A stretch of DNA of 64,000 bases from Methylomonas sp. UP202 (GTDB lineage: Bacteria; Pseudomonadota; Gammaproteobacteria; Methylococcales; Methylomonadaceae): NCBI RefSeq assembly GCF_029910655.1, contig NZ_CP123897.1, positions 2,345,547-2,409,546 of the forward strand, given 5' to 3'. The translations under genes and the position numbers were made by a program. The notes under the pieces were generated by a model, which saw nothing but the letters and a program-made list of their open reading frames with translations, did not search any database and was not told the DNA's origin. Position 1 is the first letter of the stretch; the number at the start of each line of letters is the position of its first letter. Below, one piece after another: positions 3,728-20,412 of the stretch.

Positions 3728-3841
3728 TGACAGCGCTAAGACACCGAATTGGCTGACCGCGTCCGGCGACTTTAATAGTAAAGGCGCCGTTGCGCGTGCG
3801 GCGGGCGGCAGTGCCGTCGGTCCGGCGGCCGAATGCGGTTC

Positions 3842-3863: not shown

Positions 3864-4124
3864 CGCAATCGGGTTGGTTCGCCGGAGCGTTAGTGTTTCT
3901 TCGGCGCTATCTATCCGGTCCGGCCATGTGTCGGTTGTTTCCACTCGTTGCAATGCAATCTCGACCGGCGAACGGCGGTTTATCGCATCAGGCCGACGCG
4001 ATCGTTTAAAACGCCTCCGGGCCGTATTGATGGCGTGTCCGGCTCAAGCCCCGCCGCGCGCCGCCGATCCGCGGCCGGGTGCCGATTGGGTATAATGGCC
4101 ACGGCTTCCTTCCTTGAATTCACC

Positions 4125-5939: not shown

Positions 5940-6280
5940 CCGCGCGATCGGGCAGGTTTGCGCGCTTGGTTTTTCGGGTGCGCGAGTGACGGACGGCCAG
6001 CCGACGCCGATACAGGCCGAGGTTTGGTGGATGAGGTTACGCTAAGCCGATCGGCGAACTTCTCGTCCGGGCCTCGGAACTCGACCAATGCCTTGCCGGC
6101 ACAAATGCCTAAACAGCTCGCCGGATCGGCGGTCACCTCCAGCCCTGTAGGGTGGGCACGGTTTTTTGTGCCCACGCGGATTTCTTCGTCTCCCCATCAA
6201 TTGAAAAAATGTCTCGCTTGATGGGCGCGGAAAATCGGCCCGACGGCGCCAACTTTTTGGTCCACCGCGTGTGATTTTCG
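5940..6280. other. Intergenic region with a hairpin repeat
   Basis: No gene seen. At about 6148-6177 there is a GTGGGCAC-ggttttttGTGCCCAC hairpin that looks like one of the dispersed intergenic palindromes of this genome. Open frames here are short and without start signals. Confidence 0.5.
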
Positions 6281-6593
6281 ACGGTTGGCGCCAACGGCCG
6301 GATGGTTGGCGCGTTCCGGTGAGCCGTTGGCGCCAACGGCCGGATGGTTGGCGCGTTCCGGTGAGCCGTTGGCGCCAACGGCCGGATGGTTGGCGCGTTC
6401 CGGCGAGCCGTTGTCGCCAACGGTCGGATGGTTGGCGCGTTCCGGCGAGCCGTTGTCGCCAACGGTCGGATGGTTGGCGCGTTCCGGTGAGCCGTTGGCG
6501 CCAACGGCCGGATGGTTGGCGCGTTCCGGCGAGCCGTTGTCGCCAACGGTCGGATGGTTGGTGCGTTCCGGTCAGCCGTTGGCGCCAACGGCT
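6281..6593. repeat. 42-bp tandem repeat array, 7 units plus a partial
   Basis: Seven head-to-tail 42-bp units (starts at 6300, 6342, 6384, 6426, 6468, 6510, 6552) after a partial copy at 6281-6299. Each unit carries the palindrome GCCGTTGGCGCCAACGGC or a variant GCCGTTGTCGCCAACGGT, in two linked forms that alternate along the array. Because 42 is a multiple of 3, several frames stay open on both strands; none looks like a protein (14-residue repeats in every frame, no ribosome binding site). There are no unique spacers, so it is not CRISPR. Confidence 0.9.
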
Positions 6594-6601
6594 GAATTAT
6601 C

Positions 6602-6652
6602 ATCGTTCCCACGCTCCGCGTGGGAATGCAGCCCCGGACGCTCGGGCGTCTT
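6602..6652 (+). repeat. REP/BIME palindromes upstream of RAYT
   Basis: Two adjacent hairpins: GTTCCCACGCTCCGCGTGGG and CCGGACGCTCGGGCGTC. The inverse arrangement lies directly after the transposase gene (7203-7251) and after the truncated copy (8313-8361), as expected for REP sequences mobilised by a RAYT. Confidence 0.8.
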
Positions 6653-6670
6653 TATGAATCAAGGTAAAGC

Positions 6671-7201
6671 GTGGGAAGAAGCCATCATCTCATCACCGAA
6701 GCCGACAAATCCCATTTCATGACTTGCACCGTCGTGGAATGGCTGGCTGTGTTTACCCGCCCGGAAACCGTGCAAATCATCCTCGACAGTTGGCAATACC
6801 GACGCCAACAAACAGGTTTAAAACTCTACGGCTACGTGATTTTGGAAAACCATCTGCACTTTATCGCCCAGGCCCCGGAACTCGACAAATGCGTTGCCAG
6901 CTTCAAAGCTTATACCGCCCGCCGGATCATCGACCACCTCCAGCAACAACAAGCCGAGCGCCTGCTGCAACGCCTGCATTTTGCCAAAGCCGCACATAAA
7001 CGGGATCGCGAATACCAGTTCTGGCAAGAGGGCGTACATGCCGAAATGATTTTGAACGAAGCGATGATGCGGCAGAAGCTGGACTACATCCACGCTAACC
7101 CGGTCAAGCGCGGTTATGTCAACGTACCGCAGCATTGGCGTTATTCCAGTGCCGCCAACTATGAAGGCTTGGCGGGGGTGATGGAGATAGACGTTTGGTG
7201 A
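6671..7201 (+). CDS. REP-associated tyrosine transposase (RAYT, Y1/HUH family)
   Basis: 176 residues. HUH motif H-L-H in GYVILENHLHFIAQ (residues ~55-68) and a candidate catalytic tyrosine in FKAYTARRI, the arrangement of TnpA_REP proteins that nick single-stranded REP hairpins. The C-terminal Y-IHANPVKRGYV segment is typical for the family. Start is GTG 6671 with AAGG six bases upstream. The gene is bracketed by BIME palindromes (6602-6652 and 7203-7251), its presumed substrates. A 5'-truncated near-copy follows the VapBC module at 7931-8312. Confidence 0.85.
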   Translation: MGRSHHLITEADKSHFMTCTVVEWLAVFTRPETVQIILDSWQYRRQQTGLKLYGYVILENHLHFIAQAPELDKCVASFKAYTARRIIDHLQQQQAERLLQRLHFAKAAHKRDREYQFWQEGVHAEMILNEAMMRQKLDYIHANPVKRGYVNVPQHWRYSSAANYEGLAGVMEIDVW

Positions 7202-7202
7202 T

Positions 7203-7251
7203 GGACGCTGGAGCGTCCGAAGCTGCGTTCCCACGCGGAGCGTGGGAACGA
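7203..7251 (+). repeat. REP/BIME palindromes downstream of RAYT
   Basis: GGACGCTGGAGCGTCC hairpin followed by GTTCCCACGCGGAGCGTGGG; inverse layout of 6602-6652 and nearly identical to 8313-8361. Confidence 0.8.
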
Positions 7252-7302
7252 TTAAAAATATTTGATACAGTACATCATCAGAATTGATGTCGAGAAAACA
7301 CC

Positions 7303-7512
7303 ATGAGAACCACCGTAACCATTGACGACACCTTGTATCAAAAAGCCCTGGAAATGGCCGATCCGGACATGGACAAGGCCGAAATCTTCCGGGAAGCGAT
7401 GAAAACCTTCGTGCGGATTCAGGCGGCCAAGCGCTTGGCGGCTTTGGGAGGAACTATGCCGGAGATGGCGGATATTCCCCGAGATCGCCGACAAACCGAA
7501 CCGTCCGCATGA
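7303..7512 (+). CDS. vapB: VapB-type antitoxin
   Basis: 69 residues. The N-terminus MRTTVTIDDTLYQKALEMA is the ribbon-helix-helix/DUF2191-like DNA-binding region of VapB antitoxins; the C-terminal part, rich in charged residues, would wrap the toxin. Its stop overlaps the start of the PIN-domain gene (ATGA), which gives translational coupling typical of type II toxin-antitoxin operons. The pair lies between a complete RAYT gene and a truncated RAYT copy. Autorepression by the VapBC complex is expected from the family, but no clear operator is seen. Confidence 0.8.
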   Translation: MRTTVTIDDTLYQKALEMADPDMDKAEIFREAMKTFVRIQAAKRLAALGGTMPEMADIPRDRRQTEPSA

Positions 7513-7892
7513 TATTGGTCGATACCTCGGTTTGGATTGACCATTTCAAAAATCGCAACGAAGACCTGGTGCGTTTGCTCGTTACCGATTCGGCGTTGAT
7601 TCACCCGCTGATTGTTGCCGAATTGGCTTGCGGTACGCCGCCCGCGCCGAGAACTCAAACCCTGAACAACCTCCGCCAGTTAAGGTGCTGCAATCAAGCC
7701 GGTTTGCAGGAAGTGGAAGACTTTATCGAGCGTGAAGCGCTATATGGCTTGGGTTGCGGGCTAATCGATTTGCAGTTGCTGGCCTCGGTTTTGATCACGC
7801 CCGGTGCAAAGCTGTGGACGTTGGACAAGCGGTTGGCGAAACTTGCCGAGCGGTTTGGTGTGGCTTATCAAGCTTCGCCGACTACGAATTGA
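7509..7892 (+). CDS. vapC: VapC-type PIN-domain ribonuclease toxin
   Basis: 127 residues. PIN-domain acidic residues are visible: MILVDTSVWIDHF (Asp5), VAELACGT (Glu), GLIDLQLLAS (Asp) and LWTLDKRLAKLAE (Asp). VapC toxins are Mg-dependent endoribonucleases that cut tRNA or rRNA; the target is not predictable here. ATG 7509 overlaps the antitoxin stop. The gene ends 40-odd bases before the truncated RAYT copy begins. Confidence 0.85.
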   Translation: MILVDTSVWIDHFKNRNEDLVRLLVTDSALIHPLIVAELACGTPPAPRTQTLNNLRQLRCCNQAGLQEVEDFIEREALYGLGCGLIDLQLLASVLITPGAKLWTLDKRLAKLAERFGVAYQASPTTN

Positions 7893-7930
7893 TTTACATG
7901 TTCCGTGCGGTTCGTTACCTCACAGCACGC

Positions 7931-8312
7931 CACGAGCTACGGCTACGTGGTTTTGGAAAACCATCTGCACTTTATCGCCCAAGCCCCGGAACTCGATAAA
8001 TGCGTTGCCAGCTTCAAAGCTTATACCGCCCGCCGGATCATTGACCACCTCCAGCGGCAAAAAGCCGAGCGCCTGCTGCAACGCCTGCATTTTGCCAAAG
8101 CCGCGCATAAACGGGATCGCGAATACCAGTTCTGGCAAGAGGGCGTACATGCCGAAATGATTTTGAACGAAGCAATGATGCGGCAGAAGCTGGACTACAT
8201 CCACGCCAACCCGGTCAAGCGCGGTTATGTCAACTTACCGCAGCATTGGCGTTATTCCAGTGCCGCCAACTATCAAGGCTCGGCGGGGTTGATGGAGATC
8301 GATGTTTGGTGA
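7931..8312 (+). pseudogene. 5'-truncated copy of the RAYT transposase
   Basis: From about 7931 the sequence repeats the 3' two thirds of the RAYT gene at 6671 (from the codons for YGYVILENHL, here YGYVVLENHL) with only a handful of changes, including the same stop and the same downstream BIME. The first ~54 codons are missing, and the sequence before the junction is unrelated. The HUH motif and Tyr remain, but no proper start is seen; an ATG-like in-frame start at 7905 would give an N-terminally shortened protein. Best read as a duplicated, truncated gene. Confidence 0.8.
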
Positions 8313-8361
8313 TGGACGCTGGAGCGTCCGAGGCTGCGTTCCCACGCGGAGCGTGGGAACG
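8313..8361 (+). repeat. REP/BIME palindromes after truncated RAYT
   Basis: Almost identical to 7203-7251, so the duplication that produced the second RAYT copy included its 3' BIME. A further small palindromic repeat (CCGGCAATCCCTACCAGTAT) follows at about 8397-8416. Confidence 0.75.
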
Positions 8362-8460
8362 ATGAAAGCTCCTAGTACATCCCTGTAAACTGGATACCGG
8401 CAATCCCTACCAGTATGACGTTTTAACGGCATTGGTTACAAACCCCATCCCTTCCGAAAT

Positions 8461-9549
8461 TTAGCGTTTAAATACATTCAAGAGGCGTTGAACAGTTGAT
8501 TTGACAAGGTGTTGTGATTGGATTGACTTTTGCTCTTGAAGCACTTGCATAAAGGGTGAACGATGCTCAGCACCTTCAATAAAGTATCCATAAATTAAAA
8601 TAGGTAAGTTTTTTTCCTTAATTTCATCTAAAAAAGATTCAAGAAACTCTCCCATATTCCGAGATGCTATATTCGTAACGCAAACGATCCAATTCAAATG
8701 CATACCTGTTGTTTCTGCGGCCAGAGAAAATCTACCGTTCTCGGATTTTTTGATTACTTGTTCTGCGGCTATGGCTAGTATAATAAAGTCTCTTGCTGGC
8801 ATATCACTAAAGTAATTAGCTATTAGTTGTCTATCTGATGAACTAGACAACGCATTGCCAACAGGATCTGGCAGCCTATATTCGTTAATAAACTTATAAA
8901 TTAATGAAAAACTATCATCACCATACTTTGTATTGGACTCATAATTTAATAATGCCTCTGTTGTTTTAATTCTTTTTCCTACAATTGTCGCTAGGCGTTC
9001 ATCACTAACCGGGCCATGTCTTAGTATATGTCTTGGTAGATTAAAAGAATATTCGTGGATAATTTCCAACAAATCAATCACTGTTCCATGAAATCCAGAA
9101 ATACTATGAATGAGCGACTCGGGTATGGTGCATGTGTAGCCAATTGGTTTGTTTACATTGATTTTATGGAAAACAATTCCTGTAACGTGCGAAATGACAG
9201 ATATGCAAATACAGTATTTTAATTCCTTGAATGTTATTGATAACTCATTATTATATCGATTTGTTGCAATCAAATGTTCTTTTGACTGGCGTCTCCAATA
9301 ATTAATCCATTTAGCCGCCTGCTTTAAATTATGCTCATCTTGTTTATGAATTGGTTGACTACCTGAGGTCAAGTAGAACAGTACAAGCACCCCATTCCCA
9401 TACCAAACCAAATCACACGGCTCTTTTTCCCTATTTTTTTTCAACCCTCTTTTATAATTTTTTGGGATAAACATATTTTGTGCGCCAAAAGACCTTTGCA
9501 TCAAGTCTTCAAGTACGCCTTCTTGAGAACTTTCTAACTTTTGATTCAT
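8461..9549 (-). CDS. Orphan AT-rich protein of unknown function
   Basis: 362 residues, family not recognised. Base composition is clearly richer in A+T than every neighbour, a sign of recent transfer. The N-terminal ~90 residues (EPCDLVWYGNGVLVLFYLTSG, then a Trp-rich helix QAAKWINYWRR) resemble the N-terminal domain of some restriction-endonuclease-like proteins found near defence genes, where an acidic residue in a CDL/CDV motif is followed by a strand; the usual ExK is not visible (FYLTSG instead), so nuclease activity is doubtful. It lies directly downstream, in the same direction, of an hsdM relic. A role in defence is only inference from the neighbourhood. Confidence 0.6.
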   Translation of the reverse strand: MNQKLESSQEGVLEDLMQRSFGAQNMFIPKNYKRGLKKNREKEPCDLVWYGNGVLVLFYLTSGSQPIHKQDEHNLKQAAKWINYWRRQSKEHLIATNRYNNELSITFKELKYCICISVISHVTGIVFHKINVNKPIGYTCTIPESLIHSISGFHGTVIDLLEIIHEYSFNLPRHILRHGPVSDERLATIVGKRIKTTEALLNYESNTKYGDDSFSLIYKFINEYRLPDPVGNALSSSSDRQLIANYFSDMPARDFIILAIAAEQVIKKSENGRFSLAAETTGMHLNWIVCVTNIASRNMGEFLESFLDEIKEKNLPILIYGYFIEGAEHRSPFMQVLQEQKSIQSQHLVKSTVQRLLNVFKR

Positions 9550-9564
9550 AGTTTTTCGAATAAA

Positions 9565-9696
9565 TCAAGGCCGTAAGGCGCAATAACCAACGGGCATTGC
9601 GCCGTATGTAAATACGCGGGCTGATATGCCGCGCAGTGTGTCCGCGGTTTTCCACAAGCGTTTTTCGATGGCTTCGATGTTTTCTAATTGGGCCAT
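9565..9696 (-). pseudogene. hsdM: Relic of hsdM (type I restriction methyltransferase), N-terminal end only
   Basis: ATG 9696 starts MAQLENIEAIEKRLWKTADTLR, which matches the conserved N-terminus of HsdM proteins (AIEKRLW-ADTLR). The similarity stops after 22 codons; the remaining frame runs through a palindromic repeat (GGCGCAAT...ATTGCGCC, 9581-9607) and ends. No hsdR or hsdS is nearby. A type I RM locus was probably lost here by rearrangement, with the repeat at the breakpoint. Confidence 0.6.
9581..9607. repeat. Palindromic intergenic repeat
   Basis: GGCGCAAT / ATTGCGCC arms around an 11-base loop; a common dispersed hairpin in GC-rich gammaproteobacteria. It forms the 3' part of the hsdM relic frame. 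Confidence 0.6.
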
Positions 9697-9784
9697 GTTG
9701 TTTTGGTGATGTTCTTATTGGACTGACGAGTCGTATCTGCCCGGTTTATTGAAAGGGTATTGCCGTCGGACGTATGTCAGCGCT

Positions 9785-10180
9785 TCAAATCGGTAAAACC
9801 CGCACTTCCGGCGTGATACCGGCGTCGCGCGCGGACTTGCAAAAATCGCGGTCGAAGGTATGCATCACGGCTTTACCGCAAGCCGCCAGATGCAGGGCAT
9901 CGGCAAAATCGGCGCCTTGCGCGTACCATTCCAGCGCATGACTGACGGCTTCGGCATCCTCGACCACCGTGTTGTCTACTTCCAGCAATGCCGAGAAAAA
10001 TGCGCTGAGTTGGTCGCGGGTTTTCTTGTAGCGAGCGCGCAGCACCCATTCGGTTTCCAGCAGAACGGTGCGCGAGATAAAAATACTATCGCTGGCAATC
10101 AGTTGCCGAACCACGGCGACCTGTTCCGGATGATCGTCCACCAGCGCCCGAACCAGCAGGTTGGTGTCAAAGGCGATCAT
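9785..10180 (-). CDS. vapC: PIN-domain ribonuclease toxin (VapC family)
   Basis: 131 residues. PIN motifs: MIAFDTNLLVRAL (Asp5), LLETEWVLR (Glu), GADFADALHLA (two Asp) and MHTFDRDF (Asp). The DTN-VR start places it with the VapC/FitB-like group. ATG 10180 overlaps the antitoxin stop by four bases (ATGA), so both are translated from one message. Together with the AbrB-type partner it forms a second, distinct toxin-antitoxin pair close to the VapBC at 7.3-7.9 kb. Confidence 0.85.
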   Translation of the reverse strand: MIAFDTNLLVRALVDDHPEQVAVVRQLIASDSIFISRTVLLETEWVLRARYKKTRDQLSAFFSALLEVDNTVVEDAEAVSHALEWYAQGADFADALHLAACGKAVMHTFDRDFCKSARDAGITPEVRVLPI

Positions 10181-10443
10181 GAGGCATCCGAACTATCTTC
10201 TTCGTTGAGGTCTACAGGCTGGCATAAGGCTTCGGTAGATAGCGGCGGCCCGTCATGTTTGAGCATACCAATCAAGTCGGCCAAATTACGGCCGGTTTTC
10301 TTCGGCGCCGCTTTCAGCGTAACGCCGGACGCATTGGACACCAGGGTGAGTTCCGTGCCGGCTTCCCAATGCAGTTCGTCGCGAATTTCCTTGGGGATGA
10401 CAACTTGCCCCTTGCTGGATAGGGTAATCGTGGCGGTAGACAC
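10177..10443 (-). CDS. vapB: AbrB/MazE-type antitoxin
   Basis: About 88 residues. The SpoVT/AbrB swapped-hairpin domain is clear: ATITLSSKGQVVIPKEIRDEL, followed by GTELTLVSNASGVTLKA and an acidic tail. The start needs choice: AAGGAG lies one base from ATG 10449 but seven bases from GTG 10443, so GTG 10443 (VSTATITL) fits better; a long upstream open frame to 10632 lacks support. The domain both binds the operon promoter and neutralises the PIN toxin encoded next. Confidence 0.8.
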   Translation of the reverse strand: MSTATITLSSKGQVVIPKEIRDELHWEAGTELTLVSNASGVTLKAAPKKTGRNLADLIGMLKHDGPPLSTEALCQPVDLNEEDSSDAS

Positions 10444-10989
10444 TGGCATACTCCTTCGAGTAAGTCTAAAAGTAAGCCGGATTATCCGCTGGCGACGCCT
10501 CGTTGACAAGTTTGGGGTGGTGTCTATACCTGGATAGATTTTGCGGCTCCATGTTGCTTGATGGAAACGGATTTCTACATCGACACCCCGATAATGATCT
10601 AGGAAAGACACCTCAATGAATAATCTGCACAATTTTCAGATCCGTTCCAAGGCTTCCTGGCCACAGTGTGTACTTGGCTAATTTTCGTTGGATGGCGCCG
10701 AACAATAAAAAACCCGCGAAGCCAGTAAACTTGCGGGTTTTTGAATTGGGTTGCATCCGTTTGGATGCATAAATGGTGCTCAGACCGGACTAGAAATATA
10801 GCTAATCATATGAAATAAAACGTAAATTATTTGATAAAAATCGGAAGTACACGATCGAGTACACGATTTTAGGTTTTGCTCTTTGCCTCGGTTTTACCGT
10901 CTCCATCAAAGTAGTAAACTTTTTATCAACTTTCGAAAATGCTACGGGTTCAATTCTCAAATGACCAATCGAATTCGAATGCTTGTTGA
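10444..10989. other. Intergenic region carrying the left island repeat
   Basis: No gene. It holds the left direct repeat (10682-10789) and, to its right, an AT-rich stretch of about 80 bases with a short direct repeat GTACACGAT (twice around 10846-10866) that is the inner left end of the island. Confidence 0.6.
10682..10789 (-). repeat. Left direct repeat (attachment-site-like) of the tRNA-Leu island
   Basis: 108 bases that match 15680-15788 with six substitutions and one single-base gap. It contains a copy of the tRNA-Leu terminator hairpin (ACCCGC...GCGGGT, 10711-10738) and, at 10774-10789, the last 16 bases of the tRNA gene including CCA. Sequence identity ends abruptly inside the tRNA T-arm region. 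This is what remains at the distal end after integration into a tRNA 3' end. Confidence 0.85.
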
Positions 10990-13347
10990 TCAGCTTGGGG
11001 CAGCCATTCGGTAGCCCATTGCCCGATATCCGCGTTGGCGTTTGTCCCACATACGCAGTAAAGCCGGGTGACCGGTGTCGACAAAGTCGATGATTCGAAC
11101 ATCGGTTTTGGTAGCGTGTTGTCGGTGTAAGCGGCCAGCATATTGCTGCAGAGTACCTTTCCATGAAATCGGCATAGCCAGAACCAAGGTATCCAGTGGA
11201 GGGTGATCAAAACCTTCGCCCACCAATTTTCCCGTGGCTAATAAAACTCGAGGTGCATCCGGCGGAAGCCCTTCAAGCTCTGTTATCAAAGTTGCTCGTT
11301 GCTTTTTCGACATGCGTCCGTGCAGAACAAAAGGCGGCGGCAACTTGCTGTCCAGCGCTGATAAAATAGCATCCAGATGCTCGGTCCGCTCAGTCAATAC
11401 CAGCACTTTTCGCCCCTGATCAAAAGCCGCTATGATCTCCTTGGCAATCGCCGCAGTGCGTTCCACATCACTGGCAATGTGACGAAATACATCTTGAATG
11501 GCGGACTCCTGAGGCAAATCGATTGCCTTGTAAATCATCTGCGGAACAACTTCTAGGTCGCTCGGTGCATTATCTGGTTTTGCAGCGGTGTAGCGGATTG
11601 GTCCGCACTGCATAAAAATAATAGGTTGTTGTCCATCGCGCCGCACAGGCGTTGCCGTCAGCCCCAACACATATTTGGCTTTAGCACGTTTCAATATGGC
11701 ATCAAATGAAACGGCACCGATGTGGTGACATTCGTCGACGATCACGTGTCCATAATTCTCTACCAATGGATTGACTTCGCCTTGCCGCGACAAGGATTGC
11801 ATCACCGCAATATCGATTTTTCCTGTCGGTTTGGCTTTGCCACCGCCAATGGTTCCAACTTCGCCTTTGCCAACGCCGAGGAAAGATTGTAAACGCTCCT
11901 GCCATTGTTTGAGCAGTTCGGTGCGATGAACCAGAATCAGGGTATTGATACCCCGCCGAGCAATCATCGCGGCTGCGGTGACTGTTTTACCAAATGCAGT
12001 TGGAGCGCAGAGCACTCCGACATGGTGTTGCAACATTTCAGTGACAGCCAATTCTTGATCTGGACGCAAAGTACCTGCGAAGGAAATATCGATTGCTTGC
12101 CCATCAAAGCGTTCATCCTTTAAGTCACAGTGAATACCGTTTTCCTTCAATAAGTTTAAGGCGGCATCCAGGCAACCGCGCGGTAATGCGATATGGTTTG
12201 GATGGTTTTCGGCACAGCCAATGACACGTGGCTTATCCCATACCGGGAAGCGCATAGCCTGTGCTTTATAAAATTCAGGATTTTGAAAGGCTGCGAGGCG
12301 GATCAGTCGATTTGCCAGAGGTTGTGGCAGTTCGGATTTCTCGAAATAGATCAGGTTTGCCAGAGTAATAGACAACGATTCTGGCAATGGCCCGGCAAGT
12401 TTGGCATTTTTGCTATCAGTCCGCTTCCAAGGTTCTTTGTGATCTTCCTCGTCAATAAAAGTGACATCCAATGGATGTGCATTGCCGGTGGCCCGCAAAA
12501 TAGTTGGCTCAATGTCCACGACTGCCATAGGCTGTATATTGGCTAAAAAGGCCCACTGATCGGGATAGGGTTGTAAGTGTTTGTCGACAAACACGCTAAA
12601 TCCATTTTCTCGTGGTTTTTTCTGCAACGGCAATGCGATCAAATTGCCAAAACCACCTTTGGGCATCGTGTCCTGATTGGGAAACAGGCGATCGTAGGAA
12701 GTCAGTTTCAGTTGTCGAGTCCGGGAACAGGTATGGCTGATGATGGCCGTGCCGAGACGCCTGGCATCACGCGCAGAAACATTGGTTGCGAAGAAAATCC
12801 AGGCATGAGCGCCATTGCCGGAACGCGAAATTTCCAGTGCCGACGGTATCCCAAGTTCAGAGCAAGATTGGATAAATGCCTGGGCATCTTCCTTCCAATC
12901 GGCCTCGTCGAAATCAACCGCCAGAAAATAACAACTGTCGTCAGCCAGCAACGGATAAACACCAATCGTATGCTCGCCGGAAAGATGGCTATACATGACC
13001 GCATCGGACAAGGTACTCAGTTGCCGAACGCCACAATCGGAGCATTTGATACGAGGCTTGTGGCAAACACCGGGTCGCCATTCATTTGCGCAAGCTGGCG
13101 CATAGCCAGATTTGCCGGTGGTTTTGCTTTCCCAGCGAACGGGATATACGTCTGTTCTGCCGCGAAACAAGCGACGAAATAATGCCACCTTCGCGGCAGT
13201 AGACAGTGCAGATAATTCTGGCTCTATCGGATCTATTTTTGGTGGAAGCCTTGGCGGTAACCTCCACTCGATGTTATGTGCTTCGAGTAAAGCAATCAGC
13301 CTTGCGTTTTCAGCTTGAAGATCGGATAAAAGCGCATTACTAGTCAT
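10990..13347 (-). CDS. TOTE-type archaeo-eukaryotic primase fused to superfamily II helicase
   Basis: 785 residues. N-terminal AEP primase domain: a Cys cluster (C-ANEWRPGVC-...-CSDC), the metal-binding acidic motif AVDFDEADW (~residue 145) and GNGAHAWIFF with the catalytic His (~185). It is followed by a helicase with Walker A APTAFGKT (~450), DECH box (~540), TATP and a motif VI QYAGRLHRQ. This primase-helicase pairing is described for TOTE conflict systems, thought to act on invading nucleic acid. Family members often add a nuclease module; here the protein stops just after the helicase, and none is seen next to it. Start: ATG 13347 overlaps the stop of the upstream gene (ATGACTAG), so coupling is likely; longer starts would run far into that gene. 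Confidence 0.85.
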   Translation of the reverse strand: MTSNALLSDLQAENARLIALLEAHNIEWRLPPRLPPKIDPIEPELSALSTAAKVALFRRLFRGRTDVYPVRWESKTTGKSGYAPACANEWRPGVCHKPRIKCSDCGVRQLSTLSDAVMYSHLSGEHTIGVYPLLADDSCYFLAVDFDEADWKEDAQAFIQSCSELGIPSALEISRSGNGAHAWIFFATNVSARDARRLGTAIISHTCSRTRQLKLTSYDRLFPNQDTMPKGGFGNLIALPLQKKPRENGFSVFVDKHLQPYPDQWAFLANIQPMAVVDIEPTILRATGNAHPLDVTFIDEEDHKEPWKRTDSKNAKLAGPLPESLSITLANLIYFEKSELPQPLANRLIRLAAFQNPEFYKAQAMRFPVWDKPRVIGCAENHPNHIALPRGCLDAALNLLKENGIHCDLKDERFDGQAIDISFAGTLRPDQELAVTEMLQHHVGVLCAPTAFGKTVTAAAMIARRGINTLILVHRTELLKQWQERLQSFLGVGKGEVGTIGGGKAKPTGKIDIAVMQSLSRQGEVNPLVENYGHVIVDECHHIGAVSFDAILKRAKAKYVLGLTATPVRRDGQQPIIFMQCGPIRYTAAKPDNAPSDLEVVPQMIYKAIDLPQESAIQDVFRHIASDVERTAAIAKEIIAAFDQGRKVLVLTERTEHLDAILSALDSKLPPPFVLHGRMSKKQRATLITELEGLPPDAPRVLLATGKLVGEGFDHPPLDTLVLAMPISWKGTLQQYAGRLHRQHATKTDVRIIDFVDTGHPALLRMWDKRQRGYRAMGYRMAAPS

Positions 13348-13891
13348 CAATGTCATATTCGGATAACAATATTGCCATATCTTCGCCAACACCCCAGCCG
13401 ACATTCGAGCCTTGCAGCGCAACTTGCTCGAGTCTGTCTATAAACGGCGAGCGTTTGGCTTCCGGCAATGCCATGACATATTTCAACGCTTGTTCGAACA
13501 TTCGCACCAAGGCATCAAAATACCCTTCATCATCCATGCCGCAGTAACCCAGGAATACAAATACTTTTTCGCAATAGAAAATTGACAGTTCAGCCAGTCC
13601 TTCAGGTTGACCGACCGCTTTTTTGTAATCGGTAATCGCTTTCTTCGCTTTGGCCACTGAAATAGGTTGATTGCGCATCACATCCGGGCAAATCCAGCGG
13701 GAAATCGTGTCCTTATAGGGTTTGAAAATATCCTCGCCCAACCCGAATCGTGCATGCAGAAACGTTTGATTATCTTTATTGGCTGAGTATAGGTCTTGTA
13801 TCAGCCCGATCAGACCAACTCGATCGACGTCAGCCAATTTGGATTTAACGTCGCTCCAGGTTGCTTTGGTTTTTTTCTGTTTGCTAGTCAT
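13340..13891 (-). CDS. DUF6155-like small protein
   Basis: 183 residues, no signal peptide or membrane helix. The pattern (basic N-terminus KQKKTKATWSDVKSKL, then LIGLIQDLYSANKDNQTFLHARF and KAKKAITDYKKAVG) resembles DUF6155 proteins, mostly helical and of unknown function. It is the first gene of a two-gene operon with the TOTE primase-helicase, overlapping it by eight bases. The association suggests a partner or regulator of that enzyme; this is inference. Confidence 0.65.
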   Translation of the reverse strand: MTSKQKKTKATWSDVKSKLADVDRVGLIGLIQDLYSANKDNQTFLHARFGLGEDIFKPYKDTISRWICPDVMRNQPISVAKAKKAITDYKKAVGQPEGLAELSIFYCEKVFVFLGYCGMDDEGYFDALVRMFEQALKYVMALPEAKRSPFIDRLEQVALQGSNVGWGVGEDMAILLSEYDIDD

Positions 13892-14011
13892 TTGCTGTCG
13901 GTTATTGTTTGGTTCGTACTTGCAGTTAGCCTAAGTTATATCATCAGCATTCAGCGCTAACCATCACAGTCAGACTGAGCTGAATAGAGCTGACACTGAA
14001 AGGGGTTATTT

Positions 14012-14025
14012 TTCCCGAACGGGAA
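14012..14025. promoter_or_regulatory. HipB operator O1 (candidate)
   Basis: TTCCCGAACGGGAA, perfect dyad around an AA centre. First of three copies spaced by exactly 50 bases. Confidence 0.7.
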
Positions 14026-14061
14026 CTTCAATGCTTGTCTATCGTAAATTCTAAATTAAAT

Positions 14062-14075
14062 TTCCCGTTCGGTAA
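14062..14075. promoter_or_regulatory. HipB operator O2 (candidate)
   Basis: TTCCCGTTCGGTAA, one mismatch in the right arm; lies just upstream of the -35-like TTGCAT. Confidence 0.65.
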
Positions 14076-14111
14076 ATTAAACTTGCATATTGGTTGTTTT
14101 CGCCTAATAAT

Positions 14112-14125
14112 TTCCCGAACGGGAA
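14112..14125. promoter_or_regulatory. HipB operator O3 (candidate)
   Basis: TTCCCGAACGGGAA, perfect dyad directly after the TAATAA -10-like box and seven bases before the hipB start; occupancy would block transcription start. Confidence 0.7.
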
Positions 14126-14132
14126 AAACCTC

Positions 14133-14366
14133 ATGATCAACATCCAATCTACCCAACAACTTGGCCAAGCGCTACGCTCTGCCCGCAAACAGCTCGAATT
14201 AACTCAATCCGAATTGGCGTTGGCGGCAGGTGTTGGCGTTCGCTTTATCGTCGACCTCGAAGCAGGCAAGCCGACCGTGCGTCTGGAAACGGTGATGCGC
14301 GTTATTGAAGCACTGGGTGGGCAGGTCATGCTCGATGGCCTGCCGGACATAACCGAAGCACCATGA
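14133..14366 (+). CDS. hipB: HipB-like antitoxin, HTH (Xre) regulator
   Basis: 77 residues. Helix-turn-helix: LGQALRSARKQLELTQ, then SELALAAGVGVRFIVDLEAG, the Xre/HipB layout. Start: the frame is open to ATG 14094, but that ATG lies upstream of operator O3; ATG 14133 (MINIQSTQQLGQ) is the sensible start, though no strong ribosome binding site is visible because the operator occupies its place. The stop overlaps hipA (ATGA). It should repress its own promoter through the TTCCCG dyads and neutralise HipA. Confidence 0.85.
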   Translation: MINIQSTQQLGQALRSARKQLELTQSELALAAGVGVRFIVDLEAGKPTVRLETVMRVIEALGGQVMLDGLPDITEAP

Positions 14367-15625
14367 GTTACTTGCTCGCCGTCTATTTATTTGATCGTCG
14401 AGTGGGGGATTTGGCCCTGGTTGAAGGCAGACTGCAATTTTGCTACTGCGCCGACTGGCTGCAACATGCCGACGCCGTCCCGCTGTCCTGCTCGTTACCG
14501 TTGCAAGTAGAGGTTTTCAACGACCAACAGACGCGGCCTTTCTTTGCTGGATTGTTACCGGAAGGCAAATTACGCCAACTGATTGCTCGCCAGTTTCAGG
14601 TCTCGAAGCAGAACGACTTTGCCTTGCTCAATCATATCGGCGGCGAATGCGCCGGTGCCGTTTCGCTATTGTCGCCAGACCGATTACCCGCTGTATCTGA
14701 ACCAGCGAACGAGATAGACTGGCTATCCGACTCTGACATACTGGCCTTACTGGATGAATTGCCACAGCGGCCGATGCTGGCTGGTCAGGATGGTTTTCGC
14801 TTATCGTTGGCGGGCGCTCAGGACAAATTACCGGTGGTGTTTGATGGTCAACGAATCGGTCTGCCACGCAATGGCACACCCAGTAGCCATATTCTCAAAC
14901 CGGCCATCGCTGCCGTTGAAGACAGTGTAATCAACGAAGGTTTCTGTCTGGCATTGGCAGGTGCAATGCAATTCCAGACCGCACAGTCGAGGATTTGTGC
15001 CATTCGCGACCGCTCATTTTTGCTGGTTGAGCGTTATGACAGAACTCAAGCTGCAATTGGCCAACGCTTGCGTCTGCATCAGGAAGATTTCTGCCAGGCA
15101 CTTGGCATAGTGCCCGAATTGAAATACCAGAACGAGGGTGGGCCGGGGTTGGATCAGTGCTTTGACTTAGTCCGCCGCGTGACCCGACCGAGTGCGCCGC
15201 AGGTGTTGCGTCTGCTGGATGCGGTCATTTTCAATGCTTTGATCGGCAACCACGACGCCCATGCCAAGAACTTTTCTATCTTGTATGCCGACAAGTGCGC
15301 CGTTCTGGCGCCGCTCTACGACGTATTGTCAACCGCCGTTTATCCCAGCCTGACGCCCAAGATGGCGATGCAGTTGGGTGGCAAATACAAATTCAGCGAA
15401 GTGCAAGCCCGACATTGGGATCGCTTTGCCCAAGCGGCGGGCTTATCGGTAGCGCAAACCCGAAAACGTATCCTCGGCTTGTGCCAACGGCTACCGCTTG
15501 TCGCGCGCACTTTGCAAGCATCGGCGGATCATGACTTTGTCGGAAATCCGGCGGTTGAACAAATCGTACAGCTGATCGAGCAACGCGCGGCGCTGACGGT
15601 CAGGCGGTTGAATGATAAGACCTAA
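14363..15625 (+). CDS. hipA: HipA-family serine/threonine kinase toxin
   Basis: 420 residues, close to the usual ~440. N-terminal Couple_hipA part (FAGLLPEGKLRQLIARQF) is followed by the kinase fold: SLAGAQDKLPV, FLLVERYDR, catalytic loop NALIGNHDAHAKNFS (~residue 290) and metal-binding LAPLYDVLS (~315). HipA kinases phosphorylate glutamyl- or other aminoacyl-tRNA synthetases and cause growth arrest. Translation is coupled to hipB. It is the last gene before the right island repeat (15680), so the TA pair may stabilise the island. Confidence 0.9.
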   Translation: MSYLLAVYLFDRRVGDLALVEGRLQFCYCADWLQHADAVPLSCSLPLQVEVFNDQQTRPFFAGLLPEGKLRQLIARQFQVSKQNDFALLNHIGGECAGAVSLLSPDRLPAVSEPANEIDWLSDSDILALLDELPQRPMLAGQDGFRLSLAGAQDKLPVVFDGQRIGLPRNGTPSSHILKPAIAAVEDSVINEGFCLALAGAMQFQTAQSRICAIRDRSFLLVERYDRTQAAIGQRLRLHQEDFCQALGIVPELKYQNEGGPGLDQCFDLVRRVTRPSAPQVLRLLDAVIFNALIGNHDAHAKNFSILYADKCAVLAPLYDVLSTAVYPSLTPKMAMQLGGKYKFSEVQARHWDRFAQAAGLSVAQTRKRILGLCQRLPLVARTLQASADHDFVGNPAVEQIVQLIEQRAALTVRRLNDKT

Positions 15626-15679
15626 AGCCAATCGGCTGGCGTTGATTTTGGCATCGCTTCTAAGTGTGTGCTGGACTCG

Positions 15680-15788
15680 TTTTCGTTGGATGGCGCCGGA
15701 CAATAAAAAACCCGCTAAGCCAGTAAACTTGCGGGTTTTTGGATTGGGTTGCACCCTGTTGGATGCATAAATGGTGCCTCAGACCGGA
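15680..15788 (-). repeat. Right direct repeat of the island, overlapping tRNA-Leu
   Basis: 109 bases matching 10682-10789. It covers the terminator and the 3' 17 bases of the intact tRNA-Leu gene. The two copies are separated by ~4.9 kb that holds the TOTE operon and hipBA. Confidence 0.85.
15706..15740 (-). terminator. Rho-independent terminator of tRNA-Leu
   Basis: On the minus strand an ACCCGC...GCGGGT stem with a ~16-base loop followed by TTTTTT. Duplicated in the left repeat at 10706-10742. Confidence 0.75.
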
Positions 15789-15858
15789 ATCGAACCGGTA
15801 CGACCTTTCGGTCGCGAGATTTTAAGTCTCGTGCGTCTACCTATTTCGCCACCGAGGC
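15772..15858 (-). tRNA. tRNA-Leu (anticodon UAA)
   Basis: 87 bases read on the minus strand from GCCTCGGTGGCGAAATAGG. Acceptor stem GCCTCGG pairs with CTGAGGC (one G-U), anticodon stem CGAGA/TCTCG around loop CTTAAAA (anticodon TAA), a variable arm CGCGACCGAAAGGTCGT, T-arm with GGTTCGATTCC, and encoded CCA. Long variable arm and anticodon fit tRNA-Leu. The gene is the integration site of the island on its 3' side. Confidence 0.95.
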
Positions 15859-15946
15859 CCGGTGCTGTCGCGGAGACAGTAGCCGGCGAATTCTAAAGCA
15901 AAGCGCCGAATTGTCAACGTAAAGTTGGCCGTCCGGCGCGGCTTGC

Positions 15947-17128
15947 TCAGACCGCTTGCTTGATGCGGGTCAGCGCGTTTTCCAGATTGACCATGCTGGT
16001 GGCGATCGAGATGCGGATGTGGCCTGGGCAGCCGAAGGCCGAGCCGGGCACCAGCGCGACGCCGGCTTTTTCGATCAGGTATTCGGCGAATTCCAGGTCG
16101 TCGTTGATGCCGTCCAGGCGGGCGATCAGCTTGTCCACATTGGGGAAGACGTAAAAAGTACCGTCGGTCGCCAGGCATTCGATGCCGTCTATCGTGTTCA
16201 ACTCGGCGACGACGAAGTCGTGGCGCTTCTTGAACTCGACCATCATCGCGTCGATGCAGCCCTGATCGCCGTTCAGCGCGGCTTCGGCGGCGACTTGCGA
16301 GATCGAGGTCGGGTTGGATGTGCTTTGCGATTGAATGATGCACATCGCATCGATCAAGTCGGCCGGGCCGGCGCAATAGCCGATCCGCCAGCCGGTCATC
16401 GAATAGGCTTTGGAGACGCCGTTCAACACGATGGTACGGTCGTAGAAGCCGGGGTGGGCGTTCAGAATGTTGACGAATTCGCCCTTGTTCCACAGGATGT
16501 GTTCGTACATGTCGTCGGTGGCGATTAACACGTCCGGGAAATCGACCAACACGTCGCCCAGGGCTTTCAGTTCATCCAAGCTATAGGCGGCTCCGGTCGG
16601 GTTGGACGGGCTGTTGATCACCAGCAAGCGGGTTTTCGGCGTGATCGCGGCGCGCAACTGGGCAGGCGTGATCTTGAAACCTTGCGATTGGCCGGCTTCG
16701 ACGATGACCGGCACGCCGTCCGCCAACAGCACCATGTCCGGATAGGATACCCAGTAAGGCGCGGGGATGATGACTTCGTCGCCGGGGTCCAGCAACGCTT
16801 GAGCCAGATTGTAAAAACTTTGCTTACCGCCGCAGGACACCAGGATTTGCTTGGGCTCGTAATCCAGGCCGTTGTCGCGCTTGAATTTGGCGATCACGGC
16901 TTTCTTCAGGCCGGCGGTGCCGTCCACGGCGGTGTATTTGGTGAAGCCCGAGTTGATCGCATTGATGCCGGCGCTTTTAATGTGTTCCGGCGTGTCGAAG
17001 TCCGGTTCGCCGGCGCCCAGGCCGATGATGTCTTTACCGGCGGCGCGCATGGCGGCGGCTCTGGCGGTGATGGCCAGGGTAGGGGACGGTTTGACTGCTT
17101 TAACGCGGTCGGACAATGTGATGCTCAT
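15947..17128 (-). CDS. Class I PLP aminotransferase (aspartate aminotransferase type)
   Basis: 393 residues, full length for the subgroup Igamma aspartate aminotransferases. Seen: GLGAGEPDFDTP near the N-terminus, substrate-binding NSPSNPTGAAY (~residue 173), PLP lysine in NGVSKAYSMTGWRIGY (~237) and a C-terminal GHIRIS (Arg binding the substrate carboxylate). It should interconvert aspartate/oxaloacetate with glutamate/2-oxoglutarate; other acceptors are possible in this family. Stands alone between tRNA-Leu and sbcB. Confidence 0.9.
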   Translation of the reverse strand: MSITLSDRVKAVKPSPTLAITARAAAMRAAGKDIIGLGAGEPDFDTPEHIKSAGINAINSGFTKYTAVDGTAGLKKAVIAKFKRDNGLDYEPKQILVSCGGKQSFYNLAQALLDPGDEVIIPAPYWVSYPDMVLLADGVPVIVEAGQSQGFKITPAQLRAAITPKTRLLVINSPSNPTGAAYSLDELKALGDVLVDFPDVLIATDDMYEHILWNKGEFVNILNAHPGFYDRTIVLNGVSKAYSMTGWRIGYCAGPADLIDAMCIIQSQSTSNPTSISQVAAEAALNGDQGCIDAMMVEFKKRHDFVVAELNTIDGIECLATDGTFYVFPNVDKLIARLDGINDDLEFAEYLIEKAGVALVPGSAFGCPGHIRISIATSMVNLENALTRIKQAV

Positions 17129-17211
17129 GCTTCCTCGGTCGAAATTTACTCAAATGGCCGGCATTATACGGTAATTTGCCGGTTACGCTTGGTTTGGCGC
17201 GCTAAAACCGA

Positions 17212-18663
17212 TTATTTTTTAGGGTTTGTCAATTTTGCGGCCAGTTCGTCGGCATACGCCAGCAGTTGCGCCAGTATCGCCGGATCTTGCTTGCCGGTAT
17301 CGGGCGACAGCGCGGCGATGCTGGCTTTAAAACTTTCCAGCGCGCTGGGCCGGTCGGGCGCCGGTTCCAGCAGGCGCCGCCGGCAATGCGCCGACCAAAG
17401 CTCGCGCTCTTCGGCGGTCAGGGTTTCCGGATAATTGCGAGCCCGGTAGCGAAACAGCATTTCCGGCAAGCGGGCATCGTCGAAGCCCGGATCGAAGTCC
17501 GCCAGTTCGTCCGGCGACAATTGGCGGATCTGGTTCATCGCGGCTTTGTCGCCGGCACTGAAGAAGCCGCCGCTGTAGATCATCAAGTCCGGATCGTCGG
17601 GAGCGTCGGCGTAGTCGCGGCGAAACACCGCGCCCAGTTTGTCGGCCAACGGCGGCGCGGCTTGCAGTTGTTGCAGATGTATCTGGCAACGGCCCAAATC
17701 CAGTTGCAGTCGCTCGGCGTCGGCCGGCCGGATCACCGACAGCGGCGCCAGCACCGGCGCTTTGTTGACGTGCACGGTTTTCAACGGGATGCGGGTGACG
17801 CCCTCCGGCAAGTCGTCGTTGGCAACAAATAGGCGCTCGCGGATTTGTTCGGCCGAAAGATCGAGCAAGGGTCCGGGATCGGCGGACAGATCGTAAACGA
17901 TGATTTCGTTGGCGTTGACCGGGTGCTGGGCCAGCGCGACGACCACCGCCAGACAGTGGTTGCGAGCCGGGTAGCGGGCGGAAATATGCACCAGCGGCGT
18001 GAAACTGCCGAGTTTCAACAAGCCGAGCGCTTGGCTTTTTAGGCGGTGCTCGAACAAGTAGTTGAAAAGCTTGGGTTGGTGTTGCTTAATCAGCCTGGCG
18101 ACGGCGATCGTGGCGTGGACGTCGGCCAGCGCGTCGTGGGCGTCGGCGTGGCCGATGCCGTTGGCGCGGGTCAGTTCTTCCAAACGAAAGCTGGGAAGGC
18201 CGTCGGCGTTGTCGGGCCATTGAATGCCGTCCGGGCGCAATGCGCGGGCGGCGCGGGCGATGTCGATCAAGTCCCAGCGCGAGTTGCCATTTTGCCATTC
18301 GCGGGCGTAGGGGTCGTAAAAATTGCGGTACAGCAGATTGCGGGTGACTTCGTCGTCGAAACGCAAGGTGTTGTAACCCAGCGCGCAGGTGCCGGGTTGG
18401 GCGAGCTGGGCATGGATGCGCGCGGCAAACTCGGCTTCGCATACGCCGCGCTGGCGGGCCACTTGCGGGGTAATGCCGGTGATCAAGCAAGCTTCCGGGT
18501 GGGGCAGGTAGTCGTCCGGCGGTCGGCAATAGACCATCAGCGGTTCGCCGACGATATTAAATTCGTAGTCGGTGCGCAGTCCGGCGAACTGGCACGGCCA
18601 GTCGCGGCGCGGATCGGCGCCGAAGGTTTCGTAGTCGTGCCAGAAAAAGCTGGGTGTGGTCAT
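17212..18663 (-). CDS. sbcB: Exodeoxyribonuclease I
   Basis: 483 residues, the normal length. DEDDh exonuclease motifs: FFWHDYETFGADPRRDWPCQ (Exo I, residues 6-25), ALGYNTLRFDDEVTRNLLYR (Exo II) and GHADAHDALADVHATI (Exo III with His), followed by SH3-like and C-terminal helical domains. The enzyme degrades single-stranded DNA 3'-5' and works in mismatch repair and recombination. It is transcribed away from the MxaD-like gene. Its usual partner for hairpin processing, SbcCD, is present here only as a truncated sbcD 40 kb away. Confidence 0.95.
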   Translation of the reverse strand: MTTPSFFWHDYETFGADPRRDWPCQFAGLRTDYEFNIVGEPLMVYCRPPDDYLPHPEACLITGITPQVARQRGVCEAEFAARIHAQLAQPGTCALGYNTLRFDDEVTRNLLYRNFYDPYAREWQNGNSRWDLIDIARAARALRPDGIQWPDNADGLPSFRLEELTRANGIGHADAHDALADVHATIAVARLIKQHQPKLFNYLFEHRLKSQALGLLKLGSFTPLVHISARYPARNHCLAVVVALAQHPVNANEIIVYDLSADPGPLLDLSAEQIRERLFVANDDLPEGVTRIPLKTVHVNKAPVLAPLSVIRPADAERLQLDLGRCQIHLQQLQAAPPLADKLGAVFRRDYADAPDDPDLMIYSGGFFSAGDKAAMNQIRQLSPDELADFDPGFDDARLPEMLFRYRARNYPETLTAEERELWSAHCRRRLLEPAPDRPSALESFKASIAALSPDTGKQDPAILAQLLAYADELAAKLTNPKK

Positions 18664-18777
18664 GGTGGCTCGGGTGACGGGAAAAATTCCGCAAACTTGC
18701 GTTTGCGGCGACTAGCCGGCGGATTTTATCTTATAATCGCCGCCTTATTTTTACGCGACCACCATAGGAAACCGTTT

Positions 18778-19371
18778 ATGAAAAAAACCTCGCTACTCGT
18801 TTCAGCGGCTCTGATGTTGTTTACCGGCTTAGCCAACGCGCACGGCCCGGTCAGAGCTAAACTGACCGCGACCCTGACCATCGATGCGCCGGCTGCGAAA
18901 GTTTGGGACTTAATTAAGAATTACAACGATATGTCCTGGCATCCATCGATTAAGAGCGTCGAAGGCGGCGACAACACCAAAGGTTCGGTGCGTACCTTGC
19001 ATCTGCAAAGCGGCGGCACTATCAAGGAAGAGTTGAAATCCTACGAAGACGCCAAAATGGCCTACAAATATAAAATCATCGACATGAGCTCGACCGGTAC
19101 CATTAAACACGCCGGCCAAGACGAGCCGCTGCCAGTACTGCCGGTCGGTAACTATGCCGCCGAATTGTCGGTGGCCGATAAAGGCGGCAAGGCCGAAATC
19201 GAGTGGGTGGCTACTTACTACCGCGCTTATGTCAACAACAATCCGCCGGCCGAGTTGAACGAAGAAGCGGCCGACAAAGCCGTCACCGAAGTACTGACCA
19301 CCGGTCTGGAAAACGTTTCGCGCAAATTGACCGGCCACGCTGGCAAGGTCGAAATCGAGATGAAACGCTAA
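18778..19371 (+). CDS. MxaD-like periplasmic SRPBCC protein
   Basis: 197 residues with an Sec signal peptide (MKKTSLLVSAALMLFTGLANA). The mature part has the START/SRPBCC fold signature: ATLTIDAPAAKVWDLIKNYNDMSWHPSIKSVEGG. Similar to MxaD, a periplasmic protein said to aid electron transfer between methanol dehydrogenase and cytochrome cL in methylotrophs; the mxa operon itself is not here. ATG 18778 is preceded by AGGAA at nine bases and by a TTATAAT box at 18731; a longer open frame upstream is antisense to sbcB. The YVTN protein follows in the same direction after an RNA hairpin. Confidence 0.85.
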   Translation: MKKTSLLVSAALMLFTGLANAHGPVRAKLTATLTIDAPAAKVWDLIKNYNDMSWHPSIKSVEGGDNTKGSVRTLHLQSGGTIKEELKSYEDAKMAYKYKIIDMSSTGTIKHAGQDEPLPVLPVGNYAAELSVADKGGKAEIEWVATYYRAYVNNNPPAELNEEAADKAVTEVLTTGLENVSRKLTGHAGKVEIEMKR

Positions 19372-19385
19372 ACCATGCTCTCAGG

Positions 19386-19411
19386 ATAGAGACGCGCGCT
19401 AGCGTCTCTAT
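19386..19411 (+). repeat. Hairpin between the MxaD-like and YVTN genes
   Basis: ATAGAGACGC / GCGTCTCTAT arms with a six-base loop and no T-run: could be an mRNA stability or processing structure rather than a terminator. Confidence 0.6.
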
Positions 19412-19458
19412 CGCCTCGACCGGGTTTCGCTCGGTCCACTTGTTGCTTTCTCGTCATC

Positions 19459-20412
19459 ATGACTCATTTCCGCAAGCCCGTATTGATCGCGACGTTAATG
19501 CTGAGTGCCTGGAATGTCCGGGCCGCGCCGGCCGCGTTCATCACCAATCAACTCGACAATTCGGTGTCGGTGATCGATACCGACAAGCAGAGCGTCGTCG
19601 AAACCGTCAAGGTGGAAGGCAAGCCGGCCGGCGTCGCGGTGAATTCGGTATTGAAGCAGATTTACATCAGCACGCCGGAAGGCGGCGGTTTCGCGGTGTT
19701 GGATAGCGAGCGGCTCAAGGTGCTCAAAGTCGTCAAGGTCGGCGGCGCCTCGCTGGGCATCGCGGCCGACCGCAAGGGCGAGCTGGTGTTCGTGGCCGAT
19801 TGGTACGAGAACTCGGTCGCGGTTTTCGACGCCAAGACCTTCGCGAAAATTAAGACTATCACGGTCGGCAAATCGCCGTCGGGCATGACGGTCAGTCCCG
19901 ATAACCGTTGGCTGTACGTGGCTAACCGGATCGACGATTCGATTTCTCAAATCGATCTGGCCAAATTGACGATCCGTAACACCACCAAGGTTGGCGAACA
20001 TCCGTTCGGCATCGCGGTGGACGGCAAGGGCAAACGCTTGTATTCGGCCAATGTCGAGAGCGACGACGTTAGCGTGTTGGACGCCCACAGTTTAAAACGC
20101 TTGGCGACGATCAAGGTTGGCTCCCGGCCTTACGCGGTGGCGCTGGCCTTGAACGATAGCCTGCTGTTCGTGACCAATCAGGACGACGGCACAGTCACCG
20201 CGATCGACACCGCGACCTTGAAGCCGGTCGCGGTGATCCCGGTCGGCGACAAGCCCGAGGGCATCTGCACCCATCCCAACGACAGTCAGGTCTACGTCGC
20301 CAATTGGTTCGATAACAACGTATCGGTCATCGACGCCAAGACGCTCAAAGTGGTCAACACCATCGGCACCGGCGAGGGTAGCCGGGCCTTCGGCGAGTTC
20401 TTCAGCCGCTAA
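19459..20412 (+). CDS. YVTN-family beta-propeller protein, exported
   Basis: 317 residues: signal peptide (LIATLMLSAWNVRAAPA) and seven ~42-residue YVTN repeats with the pattern V-V-D---V--I-VG--P-G (for instance SVSVIDTDKQSVVETVKVEG, RLATIKVGSRPYAVAL). Such propellers are periplasmic or surface proteins of unknown ligand; in methylotrophs they often accompany quinoprotein alcohol oxidation genes. The neighbourhood with the MxaD-like gene supports a link to periplasmic oxidation, by inference. Ends GEFFSR. Confidence 0.85.
   Translation: MTHFRKPVLIATLMLSAWNVRAAPAAFITNQLDNSVSVIDTDKQSVVETVKVEGKPAGVAVNSVLKQIYISTPEGGGFAVLDSERLKVLKVVKVGGASLGIAADRKGELVFVADWYENSVAVFDAKTFAKIKTITVGKSPSGMTVSPDNRWLYVANRIDDSISQIDLAKLTIRNTTKVGEHPFGIAVDGKGKRLYSANVESDDVSVLDAHSLKRLATIKVGSRPYAVALALNDSLLFVTNQDDGTVTAIDTATLKPVAVIPVGDKPEGICTHPNDSQVYVANWFDNNVSVIDAKTLKVVNTIGTGEGSRAFGEFFSR

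Follow-up and report, generated by a model that had tools for sequence, protein, structure and literature searches.

A repeat-bounded 5-kb segment at tRNA-Leu(UAA) in Methylomonas sp. UP202 is very probably the immobile relic of a larger island

Introduction

How does a segment of DNA come to lie between two copies of a tRNA-Leu end when it encodes no recombinase of its own? This question is raised by a 5-kb locus in the genome of Methylomonas sp. UP202 (5.68 Mb, two contigs). A first-pass annotation of the window, meaning the whole stretch of 64,000 nucleotides analysed here (contig NZ_CP123897.1, positions 2,345,547 to 2,409,546), took the locus for a footprint of site-specific integration, left either by a satellite moved in trans or by a stripped remnant. 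Comparison with related genomes, designated below by G numbers, makes it very probable that the segment is an immobile relic of a larger tRNA-Leu island, whose integrase was lost by internal deletion.

The features of the locus, in window coordinates, are the following.

10665..10771, plus strand: left half of the distal attR, an arm-like sequence at about 10666-10680 followed by a terminator hairpin (repeat alignments, arm-like motifs)
10774..10789, minus strand: displaced tRNA-Leu 3' fragment, 16 bases, with a one-base deletion (alignment, pattern search)
10846..10866, plus strand: two arm-like motifs adjoining attR, putative arm sites (motif scan)
10990..13356, minus strand: AEP-TOTE primase and helicase, 788 aa from the relatives' start; the open reading frame opens at 13422 (Pfam, relatives' open reading frames)
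13340..13891, minus strand: 183-aa distant DUF6155 relative, overlapping the start of the helicase gene (homologues' Pfam matches)
14011..14125, plus strand: hipBA control region with repeated TTTCCCGAACGGGAA-like palindromes, putative HipB-binding sites (inverted repeat I1, sequence)
14094..14366, plus strand: HipB-type antitoxin open reading frame, ATG at 14133 (TIGR03070, E 4e-23, above cut-off)
14363..15625, plus strand: HipA-type kinase toxin (PF07804, PF13657; alignment to 3tpd)
15653..15664, no strand: putative internal deletion junction, from the hipA 3' flank to the tRNA-side attachment end (homology breakpoints)
15664..15771, plus strand: element-borne left part of attL, a degenerate last arm and the tRNA terminator (alignment, motif scan)
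15772..15858, minus strand: intact tRNA-Leu(UAA), the integration target (ARAGORN)

Results

The repeats and the displaced tRNA fragment

The tRNA-Leu(UAA) gene is the sole tRNA found by ARAGORN in the window. A gapless direct repeat of 115 bases (10665-10779 and 15663-15777, 90% identity) is carried by gapped alignment to 10665-10795 and 15663-15794, into the 3' end of the tRNA, the outer parts being weaker. Between 10682-10789 and 15680-15788 we counted six substitutions and one gap in the gapped alignment, the very count given by the first-pass annotation, which had also placed the terminator and the tRNA 3' end with CCA within the repeat. The distal copy indeed includes the final 16 bases of tRNA-Leu with CCA, minus one C. 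The repeat is not a chance similarity, since a genome-wide search with positions 10640-10800 as query recovered the tRNA-side copy at E 1.5e-43. An intact tRNA and a displaced 3' fragment in direct orientation are thus both present, as in tRNA-targeted islands.

The missing C recurs across the genus. A pattern search for the deleted or intact form was run on 37 genus genomes, a single intact match per tRNA type per genome being assumed to be the tRNA gene. The deleted form was listed in six UAA-type and nine CAA-type fragments, all 15 of which were read in context. Locus reading added four UAA-type fragments (G013 distal, the second G002 copy, G012 and G030), one CAA-type (G004) and one GAG-type (G013). 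The one-base deletion is therefore carried by 21 of the 23 displaced tRNA-Leu fragments read in the genus, where more fragments may exist. In the two fragments that lack it (G014 and G022), tRNA identity extends toward the anticodon, and they probably represent another crossover class. An ambiguous fragment-like end in G034, with more bases missing, was excluded from the 23. Pattern matches in G010, G028 and G030:C1:3674043 proved to be chance when their context was read, and those in G004, G006 and G007, unlike either tRNA, were taken as chance.

When the same pattern was applied to 151 family genomes, the matches listed included deleted forms in further genera (G037, G100, G114, G175) and also, as pattern matches only, intact second copies (for example G073, G098, G163, G170), so that on these patterns the deletion need not mark every tRNA-Leu island of the family. 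We considered and rejected the idea that it is an undescribed attachment-site feature. For certain islands, PMC4383910 describes a small deletion that lies 3 bp upstream of the discriminator in the displaced fragment, and PMC11537424 gives a one-base gap (CCGG-CACCA) in the attR of GI-pheV in some strains. The window fragment falls within that subset, its small deletion lying near the discriminator.

Genes between the repeats

The segment contains a primase-helicase gene of the AEP-TOTE family, a gene for a 183-aa protein, hipB and hipA. This is the content first annotated, with the precision that kinship to DUF6155 is distant only. The primase-helicase matches PF22548 at E 7.8e-102 as well as ResIII and Helicase_C in Pfam; open reading frames of 788 aa encode it in G002 and G013, and its best named match is a Methylobacter MAG at 92% (L205), records near the window's own genome possibly being excluded from that comparison. 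For the 183-aa protein, Pfam gave no match of its own at E<=1; its four scanned homologues all hit DUF6155, with scores under the curated cut-off (E 1e-5 to 0.05). One homologue, in Methylomonas sp. MO1, is 94% identical over 73% (P0018). HipA residues 6-396 of 420 align to E. coli HipA (3tpd), and the helix-turn-helix antitoxin followed by a full-length HipA kinase is predicted to form a HipBA toxin-antitoxin pair.

Phage satellites of the PICI or P4-like kind are marked by an integrase of their own, an excision and replication module, and packaging interference. Apart from the primase-helicase domains, Pfam, PADLOC and NCBIfam revealed no family with any of these functions in the four genes. 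Pfam likewise found no TPR, OB/cold-shock or TBP partner among them, and by that measure they do not constitute a TOTE conflict system.

Longer elements at the same tRNA

We searched the tRNA with its terminator in 37 genus genomes, all of which matched, and fetched 20 regions from 18 genomes. In G013, where the matches listed include at least three repeat copies, an element of about 36 kb extends from an attR at C1:2332508 to the tRNA at 2295901. Its near end consists of an integrase (Arm-DNA-bind_3, Phage_int_M and Phage_integrase domains), arm-like repeats, the terminator and the tRNA. The distal copy, 36 kb off, is followed by the primase-helicase and DUF6155-like genes, and window positions 10702-13965 are matched there at 89%. 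A DUF927 gene and matches to DISARM DrmD, DrmMI, DrmA, DrmB and DrmC lie between the repeat copies, and hipBA is absent from the corresponding place. The existence of relatives having an integrase and the same att structure at the same tRNA bears out the proposed footprint of site-specific integration.

G002 matches window positions 10683-15653 in one continuous alignment at 90%, after which the DUF927 module follows. This module, also present in G013, is matched at 93% over 627 residues in G002 and at 92% in G036; in G016, just a fragment of its first gene comes after hipBA. The tRNA and integrase of G002 sit on a contig separate from its primase-helicase-hipBA block. Since hipBA is missing there in G013, the ancestral gene order was taken from G002 and G036; their integrase ends either lie on separate contigs or were not seen. 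The tRNA-side copies of G002, G013, G016 and G026 share with the window tRNA-side repeat the base pattern GCACCCT.

In G025, G019 and G020, a block made of a primase-helicase fragment, the DUF6155-like gene and hipBA adjoins the tRNA without this repeat; judging from that arrangement, the block can also settle beside the tRNA another way. Its DUF6155-like/hipBA part is 92-95% identical, against about 80% for the adjacent aspartate aminotransferase region. Because the block exceeds its flank in identity, its transfer between species probably postdates the divergence of the flanks.

The missing integrase and the arm-like motifs

With three integrases as queries, tblastn gave nothing better than E 0.25 in 10601-15800, and two integrases of the same genome had no match at E 1e-6 in window positions 1-20000. 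Together with Pfam, the tblastn searches found no recombinase between the repeats, in agreement with the first-pass annotation. The segment thus lacks the integrase gene carried inside tRNA-targeted P4-type islands, and for this reason we name it a relic and not an active island.

A scan for arm-like motifs gave four at the tRNA-side end in both G002 and G013, and none at that end in the window, where one degenerate trace is left. At attR, two motifs each were found in the window, G013, G036 and G017 (one of the G017 pair being a variant), and one motif plus one variant in G002. The window therefore has arm-like motifs at attR and lacks them at attL. The stretch at about 10666-10680 is the same as the last arm-like motif of the G013 and G002 tRNA-side ends, which is why the DNA left of the distal copy probably derives from an older element, as its integrase-side end. 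Both repeat copies would then be integrase-side ends, and the repeat probably exceeds the tRNA fragment since each element brings its own arm, terminator and CCA end.

These motifs, with the integrase-bearing relatives, effectively refute the reading that the tRNA terminator region was duplicated in tandem and that ordinary recombination placed genes between the copies, which we hold to be extremely improbable. In its favour, similar-shaped terminators are common at the tRNA genes found in the genus. However, the distal copy ends within the tRNA with a one-base deletion found in 20 other displaced fragments, matching arm-like motifs come after it, and integrase-bearing elements have both of the same ends.

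It is also very unlikely that the segment is a minimal satellite, mobile as it stands through an integrase acting in trans. Both tRNA-fragment cores are present, attR retains its arm-like motifs, and the genome also encodes two related integrases, both at tRNA-Leu(CAA). But attL lacks the cluster seen in G002 and G013, and the resident integrases, the best match to the G013 integrase being 63% identical, lie at that different tRNA, next to flanking repeats that differ by eye. Moreover, the two genomes of the species have one common junction, and searches with the primase-helicase and hipBA listed no second short form with both repeats in 37 genus genomes. Of the two origins first proposed, the remnant is thus supported by the junction at about 15653-15664, and the satellite disfavoured by the missing attL arms and the distant integrase.

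The deletion junction and the same-species genome

Homology downstream of hipA ends at 15652-15653 in G002, G036 and G016, while the tRNA-side ends of G002, G013 and G016 match from 15664 onward. The first three of the four G002/G013 arm-like motifs precede the equivalent of 15664 and are absent from the window, the fourth being degenerate. This switch, from the hipA flank into the arm-like cluster, points to an internal deletion, with the longer forms presumably ancestral to the short one rather than derived from it by gain. A point against this account is that about ten junction bases have no traced origin.

G005, of the same species, has the same hipA/attL junction. Its near left flank corresponds to window positions 9687-10622 (97% over 939 columns). 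It lacks about 10623-14000, including attR, the primase-helicase and the DUF6155-like gene, and keeps hipBA and a single repeat; the missing stretch is replaced by some 200 bases of different sequence, in which lie a REP-like piece and a hip control region. Inside proximal-type flanks (with one site undecided), its repeat holds five consecutive distal-type variable sites, and one base of this tract is found, among nine aligned copies, solely there and in the window distal copy. This tract suggests that G005 formerly had the distal copy; the simplest account would be that two repeat copies underwent gene conversion and that the distal one was then lost. The two-repeat form thus probably predates the split of the window strain and G005, and on this sequence evidence G005 is not an empty site.

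The same genome bears on a further alternative, in which hipBA was resident at the tRNA, the primase-helicase/DUF6155-like unit and the left repeat were inserted later, and G005 keeps the earlier state. Its hipBA with one repeat, devoid of the other two genes and of the distal copy, fits this order, as does a second attR-hipBA arrangement without the primase-helicase in G002. The distal-type tract of G005, with its base shared solely with the window distal copy, argues against it, as do the continuity of attR, primase-helicase, DUF6155-like gene and hipBA in G002 and that of the DUF6155-like gene with hipBA in G025, G019 and G020. We thus regard prior residence of hipBA as very improbable, and loss from a larger island as the better account.

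The first-pass annotation had predicted empty sites in which a single repeat connects the left flank with the tRNA. None of the related genomes compared has a clean empty site, which counts against the relic reading; G005 with its hipBA and one repeat is no such case. A left-flank ABC gene (3948-5939) was discarded as an anchor for empty sites, as it is not syntenic where checked: in G004, about 1.4 Mb separates it from the tRNA.

Spread and retention of the cargo

Matches to hipBA number 11, in 10 of the 37 genus genomes. Ten of them cover at least 416 of 420 HipA residues and at least 84 of 90 HipB residues with no stop, the G024 match being a fragment. The primase-helicase of this lineage is full-length in G000, G002 and G013, in pieces in G019, G020, G025 and G036, and cut at a contig end in G017. 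From these sequences hipBA appears to outlast other island parts, and addiction to it may favour the retention of relics.

A scan of genome contigs gave helicase relatives on 460 stretches, the best 80 of which were kept. Among these 80, 24 have a DUF6155-like gene no more than 0.9 kb from the helicase (three of them short partial matches), and an integrase match (27-70% identity) occurs on four, many stretches being short. By these counts the helicase also travels outside this island type, whether or not accompanied by its DUF6155-like partner. We tentatively propose that the two genes form an uncharacterised unit, possibly anti-phage, which lies opposite the integrase and also spreads alone, with hipBA retaining the relic by addiction; this is a conjecture to which we give rather less than even weight.

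Discussion

The history that we favour would begin with an element entering the 3' end of tRNA-Leu(UAA) by means of a tyrosine integrase, presumably of the kind labelled P4-type, with the crossover at the CCA end or just outside. The arm sites, terminator and CCA end of the incoming element would have rebuilt the tRNA, while the older terminator and 16 bases of the tRNA were carried to the opposite end. An internal deletion would then have run from just past hipA into the tRNA-side arm cluster, with loss of the integrase, of the majority of the arm sites and probably of tens of kilobases of cargo. The presumably immobile remainder consists of attR, the genes for the primase-helicase and the DUF6155-like protein, hipBA and the attL core. 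The deletion mechanism is a textbook one, with nothing mechanistically new. The interest lies in the longer, shortened and further shortened forms found in related genomes, which make the order of losses readable and the fixation of an island well resolved. The survival of hipBA versus the decay of the primase-helicase also makes retention of relics by a toxin-antitoxin pair testable.

The locus can be set beside several known systems. Its primase domain is of the Pfam AEP-TOTE family, as in the TOTE conflict systems (for TPR, OB, TBP, Effector) treated in the preprint PMC12458937, but its island genes are without the TPR, OB/cold-shock and TBP partners by Pfam. Islander, as presented in PMC4383910, maps tRNA-borne islands by the tRNA and its displaced 3' fragment, and tandem arrays occur. 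The window shares with those islands such ends, an array-like arrangement and the small deletion in the fragment. However, candidates without an integrase are rejected there, and the window relic would be filtered out. The GI-pheV islands of E. coli in PMC11537424, which applies the P4-type label to such integrase genes, resemble the intact relatives and the relic in their integrase beside a tRNA, the one-base-gap attR of some strains and their loss of modules by deletion. In contrast, they were found through intP4, and 14 of 41 had no recognisable attR, whereas the window has lost the integrase and kept both repeats. The tRNA-Leu defence islands with vestigial integrases in PMC12458937 differ in cargo (ARMADA, Druantia) and in hosts, and no integrase fragment was found in the window island. 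They nevertheless come close to it in having a module of small genes beside the repeat opposite the integrase, and in the sequential integration at tRNA-Leu by which older elements are immobilised.

Repeats to the left of the island

On this side of the window island lie:

6133-6722, tandemly repetitive stretch in which several frames contain repetitive ORFs
6671-7201 and 7938-8309, two copies of a Y1 transposase-like gene (weak family match, below the cut-off)
near 9559-9609, REP-like palindromes in the region of the Y1 transposase-like gene copies

The two transposase-like copies are 94% identical over the part common to both. The REP-like palindromes (~9559-9609) were found again in the ~200 bases of other sequence that G005, a genome of the same species, carries where the left part of the island is missing.

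tRNA genes and their islands

Across the genus, a terminator hairpin of one shape follows tRNA-Leu genes of three isoacceptors and tRNA-Ser genes (loci L141-L170), mostly 36-37 bases off the 3' end; it also occurs 39 bases from a tRNA-Pro and 25 from a tRNA-Cys. Two tandem islands occupy tRNA-Leu(CAA) in the own genome (C1:3300000-3335000; stretches L010 and L011). In each, an integrase, of one type in both, adjoins the tRNA-side repeat, and the displaced tRNA fragment has a one-base deletion as in the window island.

Related cargo and arrangements

Among the best 80 of 460 stretches related to the primase-helicase (L205-L284), identity is 75-95%, the sources are mostly proteobacteria by record title, and a DUF6155-like gene lies nearby in 24 of the 80. 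In G013, the longer island related to that of the window (stretches L047 and L105) encodes proteins matching DISARM DrmD, DrmMI, DrmA, DrmB and DrmC, and a DUF927 gene is also aboard. In the related genome G002, contig C21 (L110) holds a second, shorter attR-hipBA arrangement, ~12.6 kb from the other. This second arrangement, which lacks the TOTE gene, is similar to the G005 state.
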